This document shows, in pieces, positions 8,231 through 49,063 of a DNA stretch of 64,000 bases (position 1 is its first letter; each line of letters starts with the position of its first letter). Position numbers and translations under genes: made by a program. Origin of the DNA: Diprion similis (Eukaryota; Arthropoda; Insecta; Hymenoptera; Diprionidae); the NCBI RefSeq assembly GCF_021155765.1, contig NC_060114.1:9233501-9297500 (forward strand). The letters run 5' to 3'. The notes beneath the pieces are model-generated. The model did no database searches, was not told the origin of the DNA, and saw only the letters and a list, made by a program, of their open reading frames with translations.

Positions 8231-8658
8231 TAGGACTGTGCGGATTCCAGAATTTTTGGGGAAAAAAGTTCGGTTTCGAGACGGGTTTGTATCGGACCGA
8301 GTTTTTTGCCGAAATCTTCAAAAAAACAAAAATTTTTCAGAAACCCGAAACGTAATTAACTTAACTTACCTAATATTTATAATATTGGACAAATATTGAA
8401 TACTAATAGTAAATAGTATATATCTAAATGACATAAATATTTTCAGTAAAAAGTACATCATCTTTCATTGGGAGATCCGAGAATCCCGAAAATTTTGACG
8501 AAACTCATATTTTCGGGAATCCCGGCATTTTCATGAATCCCGATGTTTTCAGGGATCCCGAGATTTTCGAAAACTTGACCCGAAACAAATATATTTTTCT
8601 CGACCCGACCTGACCCGCCTGGAGAAATTTTGGTACCCGCACTGCCCTTACAGCCCTA
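8231..8658. mobile_element. Non-autonomous hAT element (MITE) with 8-bp target duplication
   Basis: A 428-bp block flanked by the exact 8-bp direct repeat ATATTTAC (8223-8230 and 8659-8666). The ends are TAGGACTG and CAGCCCTA, complementary apart from one base, and an internal terminal match follows (GTGCGGATTCC on the left against GTGCGGGTACC on the reverse of the right end). The interior is built of repeated CCCGA/TTTTCG motifs and has no transposase frame. An 8-bp duplication with TAGGG-type ends is the signature of hAT superfamily elements. It lies just downstream of HD-PTP. Confidence 0.85.
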
Positions 8659-31733: not shown

Positions 31734-34700
31734 ATGATGCAGCGAGAAGATTCCGATGGGAATAGTTACGTTTTCGTGAGTATACGCTCTAAATCTTGTC
31801 GGTAACTAAACATAACCTCAAAAAGAAATCAACATTCCTTGTTATCTCTCGCAGAACGAGGAAGATCTGCCGTACGAAGAGGAAATCCTGCGAAATCCTT
31901 ACTCCGTGAAGCACTGGCAACGCTACATTGATCACTTGAAGAGCACGAAGAGCGTTAACCTTAATATTGTCTATGAACGAGCCCTGAAGGAGCTGCCGGG
32001 AAGGTGAGCAAACAGTTGCCCCATACTTCAAACGGTCACTAAATAAACATATTTTGTAGTTACAAGCTATGGTATAACTACTTGCGCCAAAGGGTGAAAC
32101 AACTGAAGGGACGCTGCGTAACAGACCCGCTCTACGAAGATGTAAATAATGCTTTTGAGCGAGCACTTGTATTCATGCATAAAATGCCTCGCATCTGGAT
32201 GGACTATTGCACTCTGATGACTGATCAGTGTTACATTACTAGGACCCGTCAGGTCTTCGATCGCTCGCTTCGGGCTCTTCCAATCACACAGCATCATCGT
32301 GTCTGGCCACTCTACATTGGCTTCCTCAAGAAACACAATGTATATGAAACGGCTGTACGTGTCTTCAGGAGATATCTGAAGGTGAGTACTCTCCGATCGA
32401 CTTGTTTTCAGGCAAACGTGAAATGTTACTTAAAGAATATACAGATTAAGTAATATCGTTACAGTTAGCTCCAGAAGATGCGGAGGAGTACATAGAGTAT
32501 TTGATATCGACGGGAAGGTTGGACGAAGCTGCGCTCAAATTAGCCCAAATTGTAAACCAGGACGACTTTGTGTCGAAGCATGGTAAATCGAACCATCAAC
32601 TGTGGAACGAGCTCTGCGACCTAATATCAAAGAATCCTACTAAGATAAAATCCTTGAACGTCGATGCCATAATCAGAGGTGGACTGAGGCGATATACTGA
32701 TCAATTGGGGCCTCTGTGGAATTCCTTGGCTGATTATTATGTTCGTAGTGGCCTTTTTGAGCGAGTAAGTATCTTGTCCCCATTTGCAAATCATTGGGCG
32801 AGAACTTTGTGCCTGGATCAAAAGTTTGTTGTTTCCACAGGCCAGAGATATCTACGAAGAAGCCATCCAAACAGTTTCCACCGTCAGGGATTTTACCCAA
32901 GTGTTTGACGCTTATGCGCAGTTTGAGGAACTCAGCCTCAGCAAGCGGATGGAGGATGCTGCCAAAAATCCCAATCCAACCGAAGAAGGTGAGTCTGAAA
33001 TTCTTGGCTCAATGACACAAGTGAGATTATCTATCGTCTATAATTTACATGACTTTCTAGATGACATTGAACTTGAACTTCGATTAGCAAGATTTGAGCA
33101 CCTCATGGAAAGAAGATTGTTGCTGCTGAACAGTGTACTGCTTAGGCAAAACCCGCACAACGTACAAGAATGGCACAAACGAGTCATGCTCTACGAGGGG
33201 CAACCTCACGAGGTAACGAAAGTTGAAGAAACAGTAACACCTCTGCTTGTTTGATCAATTCACTAACAAAGATGAAATTCCTCAGATAATCAACACGTAC
33301 ACAGAGGCTGTTCAAACAGTGTTGCCGCAACAGGCAGTCGGCAAGCTACACACACTGTGGGTTGCGTTTGCCAAATTCTATGAAGAGAACGGACAAATTG
33401 CAGATGCCAGAGTCGTGTTTGAAAAAGCGACGCATGTCGCTTACACCAAGGTTGATGACCTTGCTTCTGTTTGGTGCGAGTGGGCAGAAATGGAGATTAG
33501 GCACGAGTAAGTATCGATTATTAAAAATAGTCGACATTTTTTTTTAGACAATGTACTGTAATTATGGTGTTCCTTTTTCTTGTAACTAGCAATTGCAAAG
33601 AGGCCTTGAAGCTCATGCACAAGGCAACCACTATGCCCTCACGCAAAGTCGCGTATCACGACGAGACTGAGACCGTTCAAATGAGATTGTACAAGTCACT
33701 GAAAGTCTGGTCCATGTACGCTGATCTCGAGGAGAGCTTTGGCACATTCAAGGTATGCCGTTTGATATGTCTATTGACTGTCAATAAAACTGGTCAACGT
33801 CGAGTTCCTGATTGCAGATGCATTTTTCTCTTTCAGACCTGTAAGGCTGTGTATGACAAGATCATAGATCTCAAAATTGCGACGCCGCAGATCATCATAA
33901 ACTATGGTCTATTTCTGGAGGAGAATAACTATTTCGAGGAAGCTTTCAGGGTGCATATTTCTTTAATCTCACAGTATATAGCAATACACCTTGTATATGC
34001 ATATTTCGGAATTTTCCACGTTTGTGCTTCTTTCTTTCAGGCCTACGAAAAGGGTATCGCTCTGTTCAAATGGCCAAATGTATACGACATATGGAACACG
34101 TACCTCACCAAATTCCTGAAACGATACGAGGGAACGAAATTGGAAAGAACTCGCGACCTGTTTGAACAATGCTTGGAACATTGCCCGCCAAAGTATGCCA
34201 AGGGTAAGTTTGTTCTAAAATTGAATAGGTATATCAAATGTTGCCTAAAGTCTGTCCATTCTGATTTTAAACGACATTAAAATTCTTTTTATTCGTCAAG
34301 CACTTTACTTGCTATACGCGAAGCTGGAGGAGGAACATGGCTTAGCAAGACACGCGATGTCGGTGTACGAGCGAGCTACTAGCGCCGTTTTACCAGAAGA
34401 AAAATTTGAGGTGGGTTACAGCGTTCGAAAGAGTTGGTAAAAGTTTCTAGGGTGCAGTTCTCTCAATTTTTCAATCCTTTCAGATGTTCAACATATATAT
34501 AAAGAAAGCCGCTGATATATATGGAGTACCGAAGACGCGGCAGATCTATGAGAAGGCGATTGAAGTTTTGAATGAAGAAAATACGCGGGAGATGTGTCTC
34601 CGGTTTGCAGAGATGGAAACTAAGCTCGGTGAAGTCGATCGGGCGAGGGCGATTTACGCTCACTGCAGTCAGATATGCGATCCCCGGGTGAGCGAATTAC

Positions 34701-36088: not shown

Positions 36089-39000
36089 ATGGCGGCAGAC
36101 CTCGAGCAGTTCCAACAGCTTTTAAACACACTCCTAAGCACCGACAACGATGTCCGGACGCAAGCCGAGGTACGTAACGGCGTTCCTTATTTCCCCCTTG
36201 CGAAGGCGACGTCCCGGTTTGACTGGGACACGTCGTTGCTTTTGAAATACAAGCGATTCAACGCGGCTGCACGCCCGTCGGCAACGTGTTTGTCACGAGA
36301 GAGAAGCCAACATGCGGTCGCTTCGCGAGTCGCCGTCGCCCTTTTTTGACCCCAACGCTACCGCTTCAGCCGCCTACCGTAACACCCTCGCCGCGTCTAC
36401 TTATATCAAACCACCCTTCGCGGCCTGACAGGTGTCCTGCATTTTACCGAAAGGTCAAAATGGTGGCGCGTGCTGCGCGGCCCGCCAAACCGCTTCTACC
36501 CACGACCATGGCCACGCCGCATGCCGTCCTCCATGCCGCCGCATCCCTCGAGCCCCGATTCCGATTTCCCAATAAGCACATCATCTGCGTCCGAGATTAC
36601 CGACGCGCAATTCATTGTCCGAGCCACGCGCTCCGAGCGATTTGGCACAGTCATGCACCCTGAGTTTATATATACGTATATGTCGCGAGATACTCGCACG
36701 CCTCGCGCATCCACCTCACTTCTCATCGCGATTCCCAAATTCGCCTTCTGTCCACATGATCGGCTCGTGTCCCTCGTCAATGACAGACTCACACGATCTT
36801 AGTGATACTGCCTATTGATATATGCTATATGTTGCGCGATGGCTTGACAAGAAACACGTACTTCCTATTTGTATGTACATACATACACAGGAGAGGCATG
36901 GATACGTGTCGGTCAGGAACCACATGTATGCACAATGATATGCGAGAGATAGAAGTGCCTTTTTTTATCCTGATTTTTCTTCTGAATTCATTTTAATCTT
37001 TGATTTTCAACTTGACGCGATGCATAGTTCAAAGAGAAATCATACAAGACATGATTTTGTAACGCAGCTCATTTTATGAGTAACTCTTGTAACTTGTACC
37101 TTTTAGGAAGCGTATAATAGCCTACCAGTGGAGAACAAGGTGACATTCCTGCTCGGCTCGATCTGCAATGCTACGCTCGCCGAGGAAATGCGTGCAATGG
37201 CGGCGGTCCTACTACGAAGATTGTTTTCTTCAGAGTTTATGGATTTTTATCCTAAAGTAAGTGAATTATAGCCTGGTTTCATTTATCAAAAATATTCAAC
37301 AAAGCAGGTTTACAAAATTGTGCCGTTCAGCATGAATACTCTATTGCCTCTGACCAACTTCGTCTTGTCAACTTGAAATTAGTTGTCTTATTTTTCCCAC
37401 ATTGACCATTTGACATTTGCCGAGAATAAGTTTGATAAAAATATGCATAGGCATAAGTGTTGCGTCTGCATATTCATTTTAGTTTGCCATGTGGAGTCAG
37501 CAGTCATTTTCGGATAATGAGTTTGACAGCGTTACACCCATGGCAGATGAACTTGCGAGTCCAGCCTTTCTCCCATCTGTCGTTTTGATTGCTGGGATAA
37601 CGAGGCCCTTGTAAGGCGTTTCTGAGAGTTGGCTGCGTATTTCTCATTGCGTAGTCATAGTTTCGAAACATACACCACCATATGAATAGTTCAAATAATT
37701 TTTGACTGCACATAATGTCGCTGTTACAACAGTTTTGAACAAATTCTTGTTCAGATTCCGCCAGAAGCTCAAGTTCAGCTGAAGGAGAGAATCTTACTTT
37801 CCGTTCAAACGGAACAAGCCGATACAATCAGACGCAAGGTATGCGAAGTTGCTGCCGAAGTTGCACGAAATCTTATCGATGACGATGGCAACAATCAGTG
37901 GCCAGAATTCCTTCAGTTCCTATTCCAGTGCGCCAATGGGCCAGTCCCTGCCCTCAAAGAGAGTGCTCTCCGCATGTTCACGTAAGATTCACGTAACATT
38001 CACGTAAGAAACAAGTGACTAATTTAAATCTACTATTTTTTTTTTCACGTAGATCTGTACCTGGTGTCTTTGGAAACCAGCAAGCCCATTATTTGGATCT
38101 AATAAAGCAGATGTTACAGCAGTCTGTGCTGGATGCAACGAATTACGAAGTGAGTCACATGTATGTAATGTATATATTGGGAGGAAGATACGTTAGTGGA
38201 TGTAAAGTTTTGTCCACTATTCACAATTTCTCCCCAAATTATATCTGCTTTCTGATGACTGTAACTTGTTGAGTGTTAAATTACAGACAGATACGGAGCA
38301 AATAAATGATCCATTTACAAGTACTGATTATTGACTAACGCTTTTCTTACTTTCATTCTATCTTCGTACATGAATATATAACCCGACACAAACTTTTTTA
38401 ACATTGCTTATTCTCTGTGGGGAAATATAGGTGAGATTTCAGGCAGTACGGGCAATCGGCGCCTTCATCATGCTGCATGAGAAGGAGACCAATATCCAGA
38501 AACATTTCTCGGAGCTGCTGCCAGCAGTGGTCCAGGTGATGGCGCAGTCAGTCGAGAAGCAAGATGATGAATTTTTGCTCAAGGTTCTTATCGACCTGGC
38601 AGAGTCGACGCCAAAGTTCCTGCGACCCCAGTTGGAAAACATTATGGAGATGTGCATGAAGATATTCTCTAACGAAGAGATGGGAGACTCCTGGCGACAG
38701 CTAGCACTTGAAGTCTTGGTCACACTGGCAGAAACAGCACCAGCCATGGTGCGCAAAGTTGGAGGTAAATATATCGCCGCTCTGGTGCCGCTCGTGCTCA
38801 AGATGATGACCGATCTCGAGGAAGATGAGGAGTGGAGCTTCTCTGATGAGATTATCGAAGAAGACAACGATAGCAATAACGTCGTTGCTGAGAGCGCCTT
38901 AGACAGACTGGCATGTGGCCTTGGCGGCAAGACGATGCTGCCACAAATTGTACAGAACATTCCAACGATGCTTAGCAACACAGACTGGAAATACAGGTGA

Positions 39001-42000
39001 GATTTTGACGATTGATTTATCTTTGCAACCGATGTACGCTTCATGTGGAGTCAGCAGCTATGTTCGATTAATGTGTATAGCAGCGTTACACCCATGATAG
39101 AGAAACCTAGGAGAACGTTATCTTGTCCAGGTTCGTCGTTTTGACGACACGGATATAGAGCTCCTCTTGGGAAGTTTCGATATGCAGACCATGATGTTTT
39201 CCATCATGGCCAGCACTTTGAAACAAACAAAACAACTTGTTTTTCTATCAAAGAGAAGAACATTAATTTTGCAAATAATCAAACCATGACAAATTTCTCA
39301 TTTGCAAATCGCTTAATATCGTCTTTCAGACACGCAGCTCTGATGGCCATATCGGCAGTCGGCGAAGGTTGCCATAAGCAGATGGAGGCCATACTACCTC
39401 AGATCATGGATGGAGTCATACAATATCTTCAGGACCCAGTAAGTAATAATCAGCAATACTTGGAATTGCAATCTCTTCTATCGGGTGAATGTGCAATTAA
39501 TTTTTTTCTCCGTTTCATTCTCAGCATCCACGCGTCCGTTACGCCGCTTGTAATGCTGTAGGACAAATGTCGACTGACTTCGCGCCGATTGTGGAAAAAA
39601 AGTTTCATGACAAAATAATACCTGGTCTACTAATGGTGCTAGATGACAATGAGAACCCTCGAGTGCAAGCACATGCCGGTGCAGCGCTAGTTAACTTCAG
39701 CGAAGACTGTCCAAAGAACATCATGACTCCTTACCTTGATGTCATCATGGCAAAGCTCGAATCTATACTTACGGCAAAGTTCCAAGAACTGGTCGAAAAA
39801 GGCACGAAGCTCGTTTTAGAACAGGTAAGAAAGAGATTCTAAACAATTTTTTTCAACTAGTTGATTGTCAGCAGAGAGCGAGGGCAAAAAATTACCTCTT
39901 CACAATCCACCGATGAGTTCGCTTCAGATTTGATCGGTCACTTATGAAGAGGATATCAATTCTTTTGGTTACTGTCAGCGGTTCGTTTTCATGTCTTAGA
40001 AATCTGCCGCCACGATCAAACGATACAACTGCTCCTTGTTTTCTTTCTGCTTTGTACAACTTGGTTCAACGTTGAGTTGATTATCCCTGATTCAAGATAC
40101 GATCTTTCCCGTTAGGTTGTGACTACGATCGCCTCGGTCGCCGACACGTGCGAGGAACAGTTTGTGGCCTACTACGACCGGCTGATGCCGTGCCTAAAGT
40201 ACATTATCCAGAATGCAAATCAACAAGAGCATAAAATGCTCAGGGGAAAGACCATTGAATGCGTCAGCTTGATCGGCCTGGCGGTCGGACCAGAGAAGGT
40301 AGTAATTTGTTTTTGTTTGTTTCGATAATGGAAATGCTTTGCTTGGATCACGATTAAAAAACTGAAATTCCCACCATCCAGTTTATCACCGACGCTAGCG
40401 AAGTGATGGACATGCTGCTAAAGACACATTCGGAAGGTGAACTTCCAGACGATGATCCTCAGACTAGCTACCTCATTTCCGCATGGGCTCGGATTTGTAA
40501 AATTCTTGGTAAGTTTCTTTATCACGTCTTGTTCACAGGCCCTAAAATTTTTCCCAAACCGTAAATTTTATCACTGGTAAAGTTTTTGAACTTCTGTCTC
40601 CTTTGCACCAGGCAAACAGTTCGAACAATATTTGCCGTTGGTGATGGGCCCAGTTCTCCGCACAGCAGCGATGAAGCCAGAGGTAGCCCTTCTGGACAAT
40701 GAAGACATGGAAGGTGTCGAGGGAGACTTGGACTGGCAATTTGTTTCCCTGGGGGAGCAGCAAAATTTCGGCATCAAGACAGCAGGTTTGGAGGACAAGG
40801 CCTCGGCTTGCGAAATGCTTGTTTGTTATGCCCGCGAATTGAAGGATGGGTTTGCCGATTACGCCGAAGAAGTCGTCAGACTGATGGTCCCCATGCTCAA
40901 ATTCTACTTCCACGACGGTGTCAGAACGGCAGCCGCAGAAAGCCTGCCGTGCTTGTTGGACTGCGCCAAAATCAAAGGTGTGTCCTCGCACTTCGGTCAA
41001 TTTCGTCTCGTTCAGCACTGAGGTTCGTTTTGACTCACTTCGCATCTTCTTGTTTCAGGACCTCAATACCTGGAAGGTATGTGGGCGTACATTTGCCCTG
41101 AGTTGCTAAAGGCCATAGACACGGAGCCCGAGTCTGAAGTTTTGTTAGAGTTGTTATTCTCCCTAGCAAAGTGTATAGAGACTCTGGGCGCCGGGTGTTT
41201 GGGTACGCAACAAATGGCCGAACTCCTCAGGATTCTTGACAAATTGTTGAACGAACACTTTGACAGAGCCGTTGCGAGGCTGGAAAAACGCAAAGACGAA
41301 GATTACGATGAGGTACGTTAACGAGAAGTCTTCATTTCGTTTTTATTTCTTGCACATTATTTATGGTATAAGTTTTTCTTTAAGAATTCACATCGATTCA
41401 AGGTACTGCATTAATAAATAAATATGTGAAGAGAAATTCGTTGATATTTCATAGATGGTAGAAGAGCAGCTGGCCGATGAGGACAACGAGGATATATACA
41501 CGCTGAGTAAAATCGCTGACATACTACACGCTCTCTTCACAACGCACAAGTCCGCGTTTTTCCCATACTTCGATCAGATTTGTGGTCACTTCGTGAACCT
41601 CCTGGCTCCCGAACGTTCATGGCCAGATCATCAGTGGGCCTTGTGCGTTTTCGACGATGTGATAGAGTTTGGTGGGTCAGACTGTGCCAAGTATCAAGAG
41701 TACTTTTTGCGGCCGATGATACAATACGTCTCCGACAAGTCCGCGGAGGTGAGACAGGCAGCCGCCTATGGTTGCGGTGTGCTCGGACAGTACGGTGGTG
41801 CGGCTTTTGCCCAAGCCTGCGCCGAGGCCTTGCCGAGGTTGGTGGAGGTCATCAACGACCCAGAGTCCAGATCGCCGGAGAATGTTAATCCCACGGAAAA
41901 CGCGATTTCGGCAGTTACGAAGATACTGAAATACAATAACAAGGCGATCAACGTCGACGACATGCTACCCCATTGGTAAGTTTTCTAAACGGGTTTCTCG

Positions 42001-42460
42001 GGTTTCGCGATGCCTTAAATCGTTCGTTACATTTCTGTCATTATTAGGTTGTCGTGGCTGCCGGTCGTGGAAGACGAGGATGAGGCACCGCATGTGTACG
42101 GCTACCTCTGCGACCTGATAGAAAGCAATCATCCCGTGGTTCTGGGACTGAACAACGCAAATTTACCCCGACTAATCAGCTTCTTCGCCGAGGCGCTTTT
42201 TAAGGACGCGGTGCCGGCCGAAAATCCCGTAATGGCCAGGATTCTCAGTATCGTCAGACAGATCCAGGTGCGCAAATATTCGTCGATATTTCTTTGTCAA
42301 TGTAATATTTGTCAGGTGGTAGTTAGATAGTAAACCCTGTATTCACGTATTGTATTTTTTTCAGAACAACGAGACGATGTTCCAGGCCTGCATAAGCGCC
42401 CTGACGACGGACCAGCAGCAGGCTCTTCATGAGGCACTCAGCGGCCAGCCGGCCAACTAG
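36089..42460 (+). CDS. Karybeta3: Importin-5 (karyopherin beta-3)
   Basis: Nuclear import receptor of the importin-beta family that carries ribosomal proteins and histones through the pore under Ran control. Fourteen exons: 36089-36169, 37107-37256, 37755-37981, 38053-38149, 38431-38996, 39330-39438, 39525-39824, 40116-40298, 40382-40508, 40612-40977, 41059-41312, 41455-41975, 42048-42267 and 42365-42460. They give 1098 aa, the usual length (about 1097). HEAT repeats run throughout. Diagnostic blocks are [33 protein letters not shown], the acidic loop [14 protein letters not shown], and [19 protein letters not shown]. The C-terminus ends [11 protein letters not shown]. Three introns carry candidate H/ACA snoRNAs. 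An AATAAA at 43071-43076 is a likely poly(A) site. Confidence 0.96.
36170..37106. other. Importin-5 intron 1
   Basis: A 937-bp first intron, GC/CpG-rich in its first half. The open frames there are composition-driven. No RNA structure was recognised. Confidence 0.6.
37483..37677 (+). ncRNA. Candidate H/ACA snoRNA 1 in importin-5 intron 2
   Basis: In intron 37257-37754, ending 77 nt before the acceptor. Hairpin 1: outer stem TTTGCCATG (37483-37491) / CATGGCAGA (37539-37547), pocket strands TGGAGTCAGCA and AGCGTTACACC, inner stem GTCA (37503-37506) / TGAC (37525-37528). An H-box-like AGATGA is at 37545-37550, 16 nt below the pocket top. A middle hairpin carries GTCGTTTTGA. The last hairpin has lower stem GTTTC / GAAAC, upper stem GGCTGCG (37631-37637) / CGTAGTC (37650-37656), and ACA at 37672-37674, 15 nt from the pocket top. 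A close relative lies in intron 38997-39329. The first H-box A may pair in the stem, and the third hairpin is unusual. The target is unknown. Confidence 0.65.
39038..39232 (+). ncRNA. Candidate H/ACA snoRNA 2 in importin-5 intron, paralogue of the first
   Basis: In intron 38997-39329. It has the same architecture as the element at 37483-37677 and keeps its pocket strands (GTGGAGTCAGCA and AGCGTTACACCCATG). The inner stem is different but paired: GCTAT (39057-39061) / ATAGC (39077-39081). An H-box-like AGAGAA is at 39099-39104. The middle hairpin is GTCGT-TTTG-ACGAC (39135-39148). The last hairpin has lower stem GTTTC (39174-39178) / GAAAC (39220-39224) and a perfect 8-bp upper stem CCATGATG / CATCATGG. 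ACA is at 39227-39229. The pocket-to-box distances are 17 nt, one over the usual range. Compensatory stem changes between the two copies are the strongest evidence for a folded RNA. Confidence 0.65.
39889..40030 (+). ncRNA. H/ACA box snoRNA in importin-5 intron 39825-40115
   Basis: A textbook two-hairpin H/ACA RNA of about 142 nt. Hairpin 1: CCTCTTCA (39895-39902) pairs with TGAAGAGG (39945-39952). The pocket is CAATCCA / TCACTTA and the inner stem CCGAT / ATCGG (39933-39937). The H box ATATCA (39953-39958) starts 15 nt below the pocket top. Hairpin 2: TTTGGTT (39964-39970) pairs with GATCAAA (40014-40020) and the inner stem is GCGG / CCGC (40007-40010). The ACA at 40025-40027 is 14 nt below the pocket top and 3 nt from the proposed end. 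Both pockets obey the 14-16 nt rule of pseudouridylation guides. It ends 85 nt before the splice acceptor. It is unrelated in sequence to the other two candidates. The target was not identified. Confidence 0.82.
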
Positions 42461-46365: not shown

Positions 46366-49063
46366 ATGCCGAGACGATACGGATTCTGCGGTTGTTGGTT
46401 CGTCGTTATGAGTTTTGCGCTTTGCTACACGTGCGGCTCCGAAGACACGATTATCCCAAATCAGGCACACCGTGATCACCGATTCTTTCTTCAGCAAATT
46501 TTCGATAAGTACGGAGACAAGGGCATCATCACTTTCGAGGTAGGGCCTTAATTCATGCGTCATCCTTTGACTTTCGGCACCAGTACAGATGAAACCTGGA
46601 TTTCTTCTTTTTCTTTCCTCATTTCGATGATCACCGGCGCTCAATAATCCTTGCAGGGCTTTGAACATCTGCTGGAGAACCTTGGACTCGGGCGGTTGTC
46701 ATTTGAAAAGAACCACAACGTCTCGACGCACCGTATAAACGGCTCTTTCCAAGAGTTGCACGACGCCCTCCAACTTCACGACCATCGCCACGGCGCCCAA
46801 GAGCTTTCCGAGCTCTACGGGGACGATGACGTGGGTTACCAGGATAAGGCGCACTTCGTCAAGGCCGATGAGGTCTTCGCCAAAGCTGACGATTTCTTGA
46901 CATCCGAAAGAAACTTTGGACAATCCACCACGAGGATCGTAAAGAGGAACATAGCTGAAGGTGGTTATCAATACATAACACGATATCCGTAGAATCTGAG
47001 ACCTTCGGCGAGACCTTCACGTTTTCGCACTGAAGTATAATCAAACGATTATCTAGCTATAAGGCCATAGATGACTTAGGTTGGGAGAGATAATCTGCAC
47101 AGCTGTGCTCTCAGCGATAGCGTTAGCAAATTAAACGTAGCTTGTTATAGATTATATAAAATCTCATCAAAATACCCTCAAGTGCTCCATGAGATTGCGT
47201 CACCGACACTCGATCGTTGGCTCATGTCTATAACGAGATGTTGATTCCTAATAACGCACGTTTTCAAATTTGCTTCTTTTCCGGATTTCAGAAACATCCG
47301 GAGAACGAGTTGAGCCGTATGAGGACAGTCTGTGTCTCTCGCATCAAGCCCTGCTCCAGACTTTTGGTCTGCGACCAAATCATTCCGTTGCCATTAAACC
47401 GGCGCGGTTTTTGCACCTCTGTCCGGCGATCGTTTACCAGCTCGATCGCAGGGCTTGCGATGTCAGAGTCAATCCACCGCCGACGTTCAAGTTCAAAGTA
47501 GGACCAAGTAAAAAGGTGTCGCGGACCGAGGGTGAGTTCTCGATTAATTCTTCTCAAGTGGTGTTCCCGGTACACCAATATTATCTCCGAGGGTTTAACC
47601 ATTCCTGAAATCCGGTGTACTTACACGTTGCTCAAATCACTTGAAGTCACTCGAAGTCATATGAAGCTACGTGGAGTCACCTCGATTCACTTGAAGTTGA
47701 AGTCATTTCAAGTCAGGGAATTCAATGAATTCACTTGAACTCACATGAAGTCATTTGAAGTCGATTGACTTCACGAAGTCTCTTCAAGTCTTGCAGTCAT
47801 GAAATCAGGTGTGCGGTCAATCGACGCACTGGTTAACCCCTCGATTCTCTCTAATCTCGATAATTGGCAGCCTGGATCCACGCGACTTTGGCCACTGGGG
47901 TGATCAGCTCCGTGGGACTTCTGGCCGTTACCATGGTGAAACTGACGCGGCGTCCGTCGTTCCTCCACTTCCTGGTCGCCCTGGCTGTCGGCACGCTCAG
48001 CGGGGACGCCCTGCTACATCTTCTGCCGCATGTGAGCTTAATCGTTGTGAAGTCAGCTGGACTAAGAGTAACGAAGACAATTAATAATTTTTAGGCTCTG
48101 CTTTCAGAGGATATGGATCACGAGACCGCTGCGCTCAGATGTAGTGCGACCTTCTTAGCCGTCGTACTTTTTTACGCACTCGAGGCCACCCTTTTCCTCG
48201 TCAGGTTACCTAATGTAAGTTACGTGGGATCCAATCTCCTGGCCGACCACAGTAACGGTTATACCTATCTATAATGCTGATACGATTCCAGCTTCGGAAG
48301 AAGGCGGCTCCAGGCGACGAACGCGACGTCTCTTTCGAGCTCGGGGCCACATCGGCTGTGAATAAGAGCGTGGAGGAGGCCGACTCGATGCTGACGCAGC
48401 ACGGTCACTCCCACGGTCTCCCCGAGGGAAAATCGTCCTCCCTGGTCTTCCTCGTCCTCGTCGGCGACGGGCTCCACAATATGGCAGACGGCCTCGCGAT
48501 CGGCGCCTCCTTCGCCAGCGACCCGGTCGCTGGGTTGGCGACAACAATAGCTGTCTTCTGCCATGAGCTGCCTCACGAACTCGGTAACGCTTCCAGAAAA
48601 TCGCGTATCGCAAGGGTGCATACAGAGTTCACATGCTCATCGTTCTTCGAATGTCTACAGGTGATTTCGCGGTCCTGATCAACGCTGGAATGAGCGTGAG
48701 ACGGGCTTTGATGTATAACCTTCTTTCTTCGGCACTCAGCTTCGTCGGCGCCGCGGTCGGTGTCTGCCTTGGCGAAATCGGGAACGCAAGCCACTGGATA
48801 TACGCTGTGACCGCTGGCAGCTTTATGTACATCGCCTTGGCCAATTTGGTACGGACGCATCGTATTACGTTTAGGAGGGAATTGTGGTCTTACATGGTAA
48901 TAATGTTGCGATTCAATTTCAGGTACCAGAAATGATGAGGTTTGTGAAAACCGACGCGAAGGCACATGGAATTCTTATCCAGCTCTCAGGAATCGCTGTC
49001 GGAGGCATGTTGATGCTGCTTATCGCTCTACATGAGGAAAAGCTCATGGGTCTTCTTTCATAA
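46366..49063 (+). CDS. ZIP zinc transporter, LIV-1 subfamily (SLC39A)
   Basis: Imports zinc into the cytosol. Exons: 46366-46539, 46657-46960, 47292-47531, 47871-48031, 48095-48214, 48292-48583, 48661-48848 and 48923-49063, giving 539 aa. The start is a signal peptide ([19 protein letters not shown]). A luminal/extracellular domain follows with [15 protein letters not shown] and [17 protein letters not shown], the Cys-bearing block before the membrane part of LIV-1 proteins. Membrane segments run from [16 protein letters not shown] to the C-terminus. The zinc site is [13 protein letters not shown] (TM4) and [10 protein letters not shown] (TM5, the HEXPHEXGD signature, split by an intron). A small His loop, HGHSHG, lies before TM4. 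The short N-terminus suits Zip71B/ZIP5-like proteins better than the long His-rich foi type, but the orthologue is not settled. Confidence 0.9.
47630..47800. repeat. Degenerate minisatellite (GAAGTCACTT-type) in ZIP intron
   Basis: Intron 47532-47870 contains about 170 bp built from imperfect copies of a roughly 10-11 bp motif, TTGAAGTCACT, with both direct and inverted (AAGTGA / TCACTT) versions. The units vary at nearly every copy, so the tract looks old. Confidence 0.75.

Follow-up and report, generated by a model that had tools for sequence, protein, structure and literature searches.

The importin-5 gene carried on the plus strand of the 64,000-nucleotide (nt) stretch of Diprion similis DNA analysed here (G000:C10:9233501-9297500, hereafter the window, in whose coordinates all positions are given) very probably hosts genuine H/ACA guide RNAs in its introns 2, 4, and 5, one per intron, and a further H/ACA RNA probably lies in its intron 7. 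Family matches, H/ACA architecture, and guide complementarity to RNAs of the same genome were computed, and the transcription of the four RNAs, their processing, and the modifications they would direct are predicted from the sequence. The original prediction had placed H/ACA-type RNAs in three importin-5 introns, namely 2, 5, and 7, with ends 77-97 nt before the splice acceptor, and the RNAs are now measured to stop 78, 98, and 85 nt, respectively, short of the end of their intron, in agreement with it, the end of the intron-7 RNA being assumed to lie 3 nt past its ACA box. This group of three turned out to be incomplete, since the best supported of the four RNAs, SCARNA8 (U92) in intron 4, whose end lies 123 nt from that of the intron, had been overlooked. 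The features of the latter are the following.

38178..38307, plus strand: SCARNA8/U92, an H/ACA small Cajal-body RNA in intron 4 (38150-38430), from Rfam RF00286 and RF02666 and from folding.
38236..38241, plus strand: H box AAAUUA of SCARNA8, from the sequence; the right pocket strand begins 14 nt upstream of the box.
38270..38273, plus strand: UGAG resembling a Cajal body box (CAB) in the hairpin 2 loop of SCARNA8, from its position, the loop being taken from the fold.
38302..38304, plus strand: AUA replacing ACA in the SCARNA8 tail, from the sequence.

With 84.7 bits against Rfam RF00286, SCARNA8 exceeds the gathering score of 53 and is the sole gathering-level Rfam match within the window, while against the Drosophila family PsiU2-35.45 (RF02666) it reaches 58.4 bits, below the gathering score of 89. 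Its folding z is -3.61 (200 shuffles). In the genome, that is, over the 269 Mb assembly of 60 contigs, one match was obtained among the best 44 of the 15187 candidates scored, at the intron 4 locus itself. Besides, the UGAG of its loop fits the ugAG given as CAB consensus in PMC4041459, and the RNA may accumulate in Cajal bodies.

Introns 2 and 5 contain two related RNAs of the SNORA74 (U19) kind.

37486..37676, plus strand: SNORA74/U19-like three-hairpin H/ACA RNA, copy 1, in intron 2 (37257-37754), from Rfam RF00090 and folding.
37545..37550, plus strand: H box AGAUGA of copy 1, from the sequence; the right pocket strand begins 14 nt upstream of the box.
37672..37674, plus strand: ACA box of copy 1, from the sequence; the right pocket strand of hairpin 3 begins 14 nt upstream.
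39040..39232, plus strand: SNORA74/U19-like RNA, copy 2, in intron 5 (38997-39329), from Rfam RF00090, folding, and alignment.
39099..39104, plus strand: H box AGAGAA of copy 2, from the sequence; the right pocket strand begins 14 nt upstream of the box.
39227..39229, plus strand: ACA box of copy 2, from the sequence, picked from several nearby ACA.

Against RF00090, copy 1 scores 66.4 bits (E=2.2e-15, model positions 1-201) and copy 2 scores 39.3 bits (E=1.7e-7, full model). Both fold well, with z values of -3.78 for copy 1 (1 of 200 shuffles equal or better) and -5.20 for copy 2 (0 of 200), and the three-hairpin layout is common to the two folds. In line with the claim that two of the three RNAs first noticed are paralogues and the third is unrelated to them, the hairpin 1 sequences of the two copies are 84% identical over 55 nt, the remainder being more diverged, and the intron-7 element retrieves itself alone in a DNA search of the genome (1 candidate). 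A similar DNA search with the U19-like sequence returned just copies 1 and 2, and the SNORA74 family search of the genome returned copy 1 alone among the matches listed, the best 32 of 2403 candidates having been scored; as copy 2 was overlooked, this family search is not exhaustive. The covariance-model search proposed in the original prediction thus assigned introns 2, 5, and 4 to known families, the first two below the gathering level, and left intron 7 without any family.

The targets of the guide pockets were sought in RNAs of the same genome, comprising the 18S and 5.8S ribosomal RNAs (rRNAs; L012), the 28S rRNA as three pieces (L015, L017, and L020), and the small nuclear RNAs (snRNAs) U2 (L003, 179.1 bits), U5, and U6, with U1, U4, and the minor snRNAs outside the set; of the 28S pieces, L017 represents a dispersed copy whose sequence may not be that of the expressed 28S. 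Eight pockets were scanned, namely those of hairpins 1 and 3 in both U19 copies, the two of U92, and the two of the intron-7 RNA, U19 hairpin 2 being outside the scan. In the strict scan, each pocket was delimited by the guide motifs anticipated next to the upper stem, with 13-15 nt to the box. Relaxed target scans, in which known targets stood barely above shuffles, were discarded as too permissive in favour of these pocket-fixed scans.

In all five pockets for which the family predicts a site, this site ranked first, and the same sites were obtained with or without U6. Hairpin 1 of both U19 copies, whose guide letters are identical, had as first-ranked site GUAAC-U-A-UGACUC in helix 69 of 28S, a result equalled for each copy by a single one of 150 shuffled target sets, and hairpin 3 of copy 1 ranked first AACUA-U-G-ACUCUC, also in helix 69 and two bases further on, with 11 pairs. 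For U92, hairpin 1 ranked U2 U34 first, and hairpin 2 ranked U2 U44 first with 2 of 150 shuffled target sets as good; these two uridines are taken here to be the U92 targets, numbered 35 and 45 in flies as in the name of RF02666. Two of the four distinct pairings therefore stand well above shuffled targets, while the remaining two depend on what is known of the families. In the same line, human U19 and yeast snR191 modify both equivalent large-subunit sites (PMC2584109), helix 69 bears several modified bases (PMC7277114), and an activity of U92 on U2 is mentioned (PMC8522698).

The target RNAs call for some observations of their own. At about 2870-2910 of the reverse complement of L015 (G000:C20, minus strand), the helix-69 sequence, uninterrupted in no other piece retrieved from the genome, gives way directly to foreign sequence and another partial copy; an R2-type element inserted where such elements usually sit in 28S would presumably leave a break of this kind. 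Two dispersed fragments of 28S, L017 and L019, lie on the long contig G000:C14, and the short motifs compared are not the same in both. A 28S pattern spanning helix 69 and beyond had no match in viral contigs, and a similar pattern had none in the genome itself. Four U2 snRNA matches, two per orientation, lie within about 8 kb at G000:C5:2998498-3006592, and C14 and C4 carry one each.

The divergence of the two U19-like copies raises the question of whether copy 2 still works as a guide or is a pseudogene in decay. Its Rfam score, lower than that of copy 1, and the loss of the U19 guide letters from its hairpin 3 speak for such decay, and the second helix-69 uridine was not among the top-ranked rows for this hairpin in the strict scan. 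On the other hand, copy 2 possesses H and ACA boxes and folds strongly, both as a whole RNA and in hairpin 3 folded alone (z -5.40), and its hairpin 1 keeps the guide letters unchanged and the stems through paired changes: of the 12 pairs compared between the copies, 8 are unchanged, 3 are altered on both sides with pairing retained, and 1 is broken in copy 2. Decay is therefore judged unlikely.

A quite different fate for copy 2 would be retargeting, its rebuilt hairpin 3 guiding U2 U34 like the neighbouring U92, so that a single RNA would serve both ribosome and spliceosome. In a relaxed register, CACUUUGA of this hairpin pairs 8/8 with U2 and GAUAU pairs 5/5 (one G-U), beside U34; this pairing exceeds those of 40/40 shuffled U2 sequences, but 8 out of 40 shuffles of the complete target set equal it. 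Another relaxed scan ranked U2 U37 first, with a score that one of 60 shuffled guides also reached. Against retargeting, the base of the upper stem must open, copy 2 is devoid of UGAG, and U2 U34 was not among the top rows for this hairpin in the strict geometry, which makes this scenario very improbable. The reading retained for copy 2 is that of a guide RNA sharing the first helix-69 site with copy 1.

The fourth RNA, in intron 7, belongs to no recognised family.

39895..40030 (approximate), plus strand: two-hairpin H/ACA-like RNA without family in intron 7 (39825-40115), from the descriptor and shuffles.
39953..39958, plus strand: H box AUAUCA of the intron-7 RNA, from the sequence; the right pocket strand of hairpin 1 begins 14 nt upstream.
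40025..40027, plus strand: ACA box of the intron-7 RNA, from the sequence; the right pocket strand of hairpin 2 begins 14 nt upstream.

This element has the H/ACA architecture, with two hairpins, an H box (ANANNA) between them, and an ACA after the second. The pocket-to-box spacing of H/ACA RNAs is about 14 nt, and here it is 14 nt for both pockets, in a test designed with the intron-7 element in mind. A chance fold, with introns 2, 4, and 5 being genuine, is the alternative to consider. In its favour, no Rfam family was matched by the element at E up to 5, and folding over 39860-40030 gives a single joined structure instead of two hairpins, with a z of -2.87 (4 of 200 shuffles equal or better). 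When the intron is folded in full, by contrast, a hairpin at 39895-39952, the H box at 39953, a second hairpin, and the ACA at 40025 follow one another in the hairpin-hinge-hairpin-tail order. Among eight separately folded segments of the gene's RNAs, z ranged from -0.57 to -5.40, misplaced cuts of intron 7 (-0.57 and -0.92) giving no support. A UGAG is found at 39914, outside any clear terminal loop of the whole-intron fold.

An H/ACA descriptor applied to the window gave the intron-7 element a score of -43.1, the best of both strands. None of 2000 shuffles of the intron attained this score, and 12 shuffles of the window, amounting to 768 kb and scanned on one strand for ACA tails only, went no further than -41.3. 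The next scores in the window, which favour a chance origin, are -41.1 (minus strand, about 8396-8537, AUA tail) and -38.6 (about 48458-48631). The former place, 8396-8537 on the minus strand, has an H box AGAUGA and no gathering-level Rfam match, and it may itself be due to chance. An earlier version of the descriptor, without an enforced upper stem, was dropped; it gave -43.1 for intron 7 and -41.0 for the runner-up. As for targets, each of the two intron-7 pockets has its best site in 28S, one at GCG-U-UGGAUUG and the other immediately 5' of the sarcin-ricin loop, at a distance of 88 nt in L017. Among 150 shuffled target sets, 25 and 52 did as well; the intron-7 RNA is thus an orphan without a convincing target among the RNAs scanned, which again speaks for chance. 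In view of the whole-intron fold, of the box spacing, of the shuffles, and of a position and length resembling those of the RNAs of the sister introns, a chance fold is considered improbable and an H/ACA RNA in intron 7 probable.

The most radical alternative is that the elements first noticed are fold artefacts and that importin-5 contains no guide RNA. Similar-scoring descriptor matches do occur elsewhere in the window, but the Rfam matches, which bear jointly on sequence and structure, contradict this explanation for introns 2, 4, and 5, and the expected targets rank first, so that it retains hardly any credibility. Several points nonetheless weigh against the presence of genuine guide RNAs in these introns. 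Both SNORA74 matches remain under the Rfam gathering score of 71 bits, for which reason the two copies are termed U19-like relatives, and the covariation in hairpin 1 was matched by 67 of 500 shuffles and, coming from two sequences, is mild support. As regards the targets, the pocket borders were placed at motifs expected beforehand, and two of the expected sites are not significant alone, the score of copy 1 hairpin 3 being attained by 57 of 150 shuffled target sets and that of U92 hairpin 1 by 44 of 150. Looser scans put U2 U34 second for U92 hairpin 1, or outside the top four rows, and missed the site of copy 1 hairpin 3, owing to a wrong right strand or a cut piece end. Finally, the descriptor was devised after the intron-7 structure had been seen and was not designed for the three-hairpin U19, and it ranks the Rfam-supported U92, at -30.6, behind intron 7 and seven further places, of which one is located in exon 5 of importin-5.

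The host gene itself is complete, with 14 exons and 13 introns and a spliced frame that is open.

36089..42460, plus strand: importin-5 coding region (host gene), from ATG to stop, from the open spliced frame, PDB, and Pfam.

The spliced protein matches importin-5 in PDB (6xte_A, E=0, residues 2-1093) and contains the Pfam domain TPR_IPO5 (E=1.7e-88); intron 8 has alternative donors at 40299 and 40302, the frame being open with either. The lengths of introns 1 to 13 are 937, 498, 71, 281, 333, 86, 291, 83, 103, 81, 142, 72, and 97 nt, so that five introns exceed 280 nt, four of which contain H/ACA or H/ACA-like RNAs, and the other eight measure 71-142 nt. For the fifth long one, intron 1 (937 nt), no H/ACA RNA figured among the 11 Rfam rows with an E of 5 or less. 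A search for related importin-5 loci gave none in viral contigs and, in genome contigs, 31 pattern matches of which none was confirmed. An open reading frame with Syf1/CRNKL1 HAT repeats (splicing factor), at 33564-34280, precedes importin-5 in the same orientation.

Importin-5 was not found as a small nucleolar RNA (snoRNA) host in the excerpts of open-licence literature searched, and in the excerpted papers covering both IPO5 and snoRNA, including PMC7584452, IPO5 is not named as such a host; insect annotation databases lay outside this scope, and the host may already be annotated there. The choice of host is nevertheless plausible by inference, since human IPO5 and IPO7 are reported as core 5' terminal oligopyrimidine (5'TOP) mRNAs serving ribosomal-protein import (PMC7584452), a class to which several transcripts hosting snoRNAs also belong (PMC7277114). 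Along with SNORA23 in human IPO7 (PMC8763008), these reports speak for the link put forward in the original prediction, in which importin-5 would import ribosomal proteins while the snoRNAs modify rRNA. In flies, 95% of the snoRNAs expressed in S2 cells are intronic and 30% of the host genes are ribosomal-protein genes (PMC13228274). This intronic hosting, which is thus the rule in flies, and the fact that SCARNA8 would guide U2 snRNA instead of rRNA both count against a specific link between importin cargo and rRNA modification.

Taken together, these data suggest a model in which importin-5 would act as an ordinary host gene, its introns being trimmed after splicing to H/ACA cores that would bind the pseudouridine synthase complex. 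Copy 1 would then guide the pseudouridylation of two uridines of 28S helix 69, copy 2 would retain the first of these helix-69 guides alone, and U92 would guide that of U2 U34 and U44. Two ancient guide families and one H/ACA-like RNA without family are thereby placed in one nuclear-import gene, which is useful for annotation and for tracing both the moves of guide RNAs between hosts and their duplication within a host. The U19 duplication within one gene, with one guide retained and one lost, offers a small testable case of guide-RNA divergence.

Compared to known systems, these are known kinds of RNA in a new place and not a new kind of thing. Like SNORA74 (U19; RF00090) and yeast snR191, the U19-like RNAs have three hairpins, with letters able to pair with helix 69 in hairpin 1 of both copies and in hairpin 3 of copy 1; they differ from U19 in their sub-gathering scores, in the presence of two copies in one protein-coding host, and in the absence of the hairpin 3 guide from copy 2. 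Human U19 reportedly has a host transcript whose coding potential is small, as the title of Bortolin and Kiss (1998) has it. The intron 4 RNA shares with SCARNA8 (U92; RF00286) a score exceeding the gathering level, two pockets complementary to U2, and the CAB-like loop UGAG, whereas its tail is AUA, not ACA, and it falls short of the gathering score of the Drosophila PsiU2-35.45 family. Finally, SNORA23, hosted by human IPO7 (PMC8763008), is likewise an H/ACA RNA inside an intron of an importin gene, but the importin and the RNA are different, and IPO7 is credited there with one such RNA, compared to three or four in the importin-5 gene described here.

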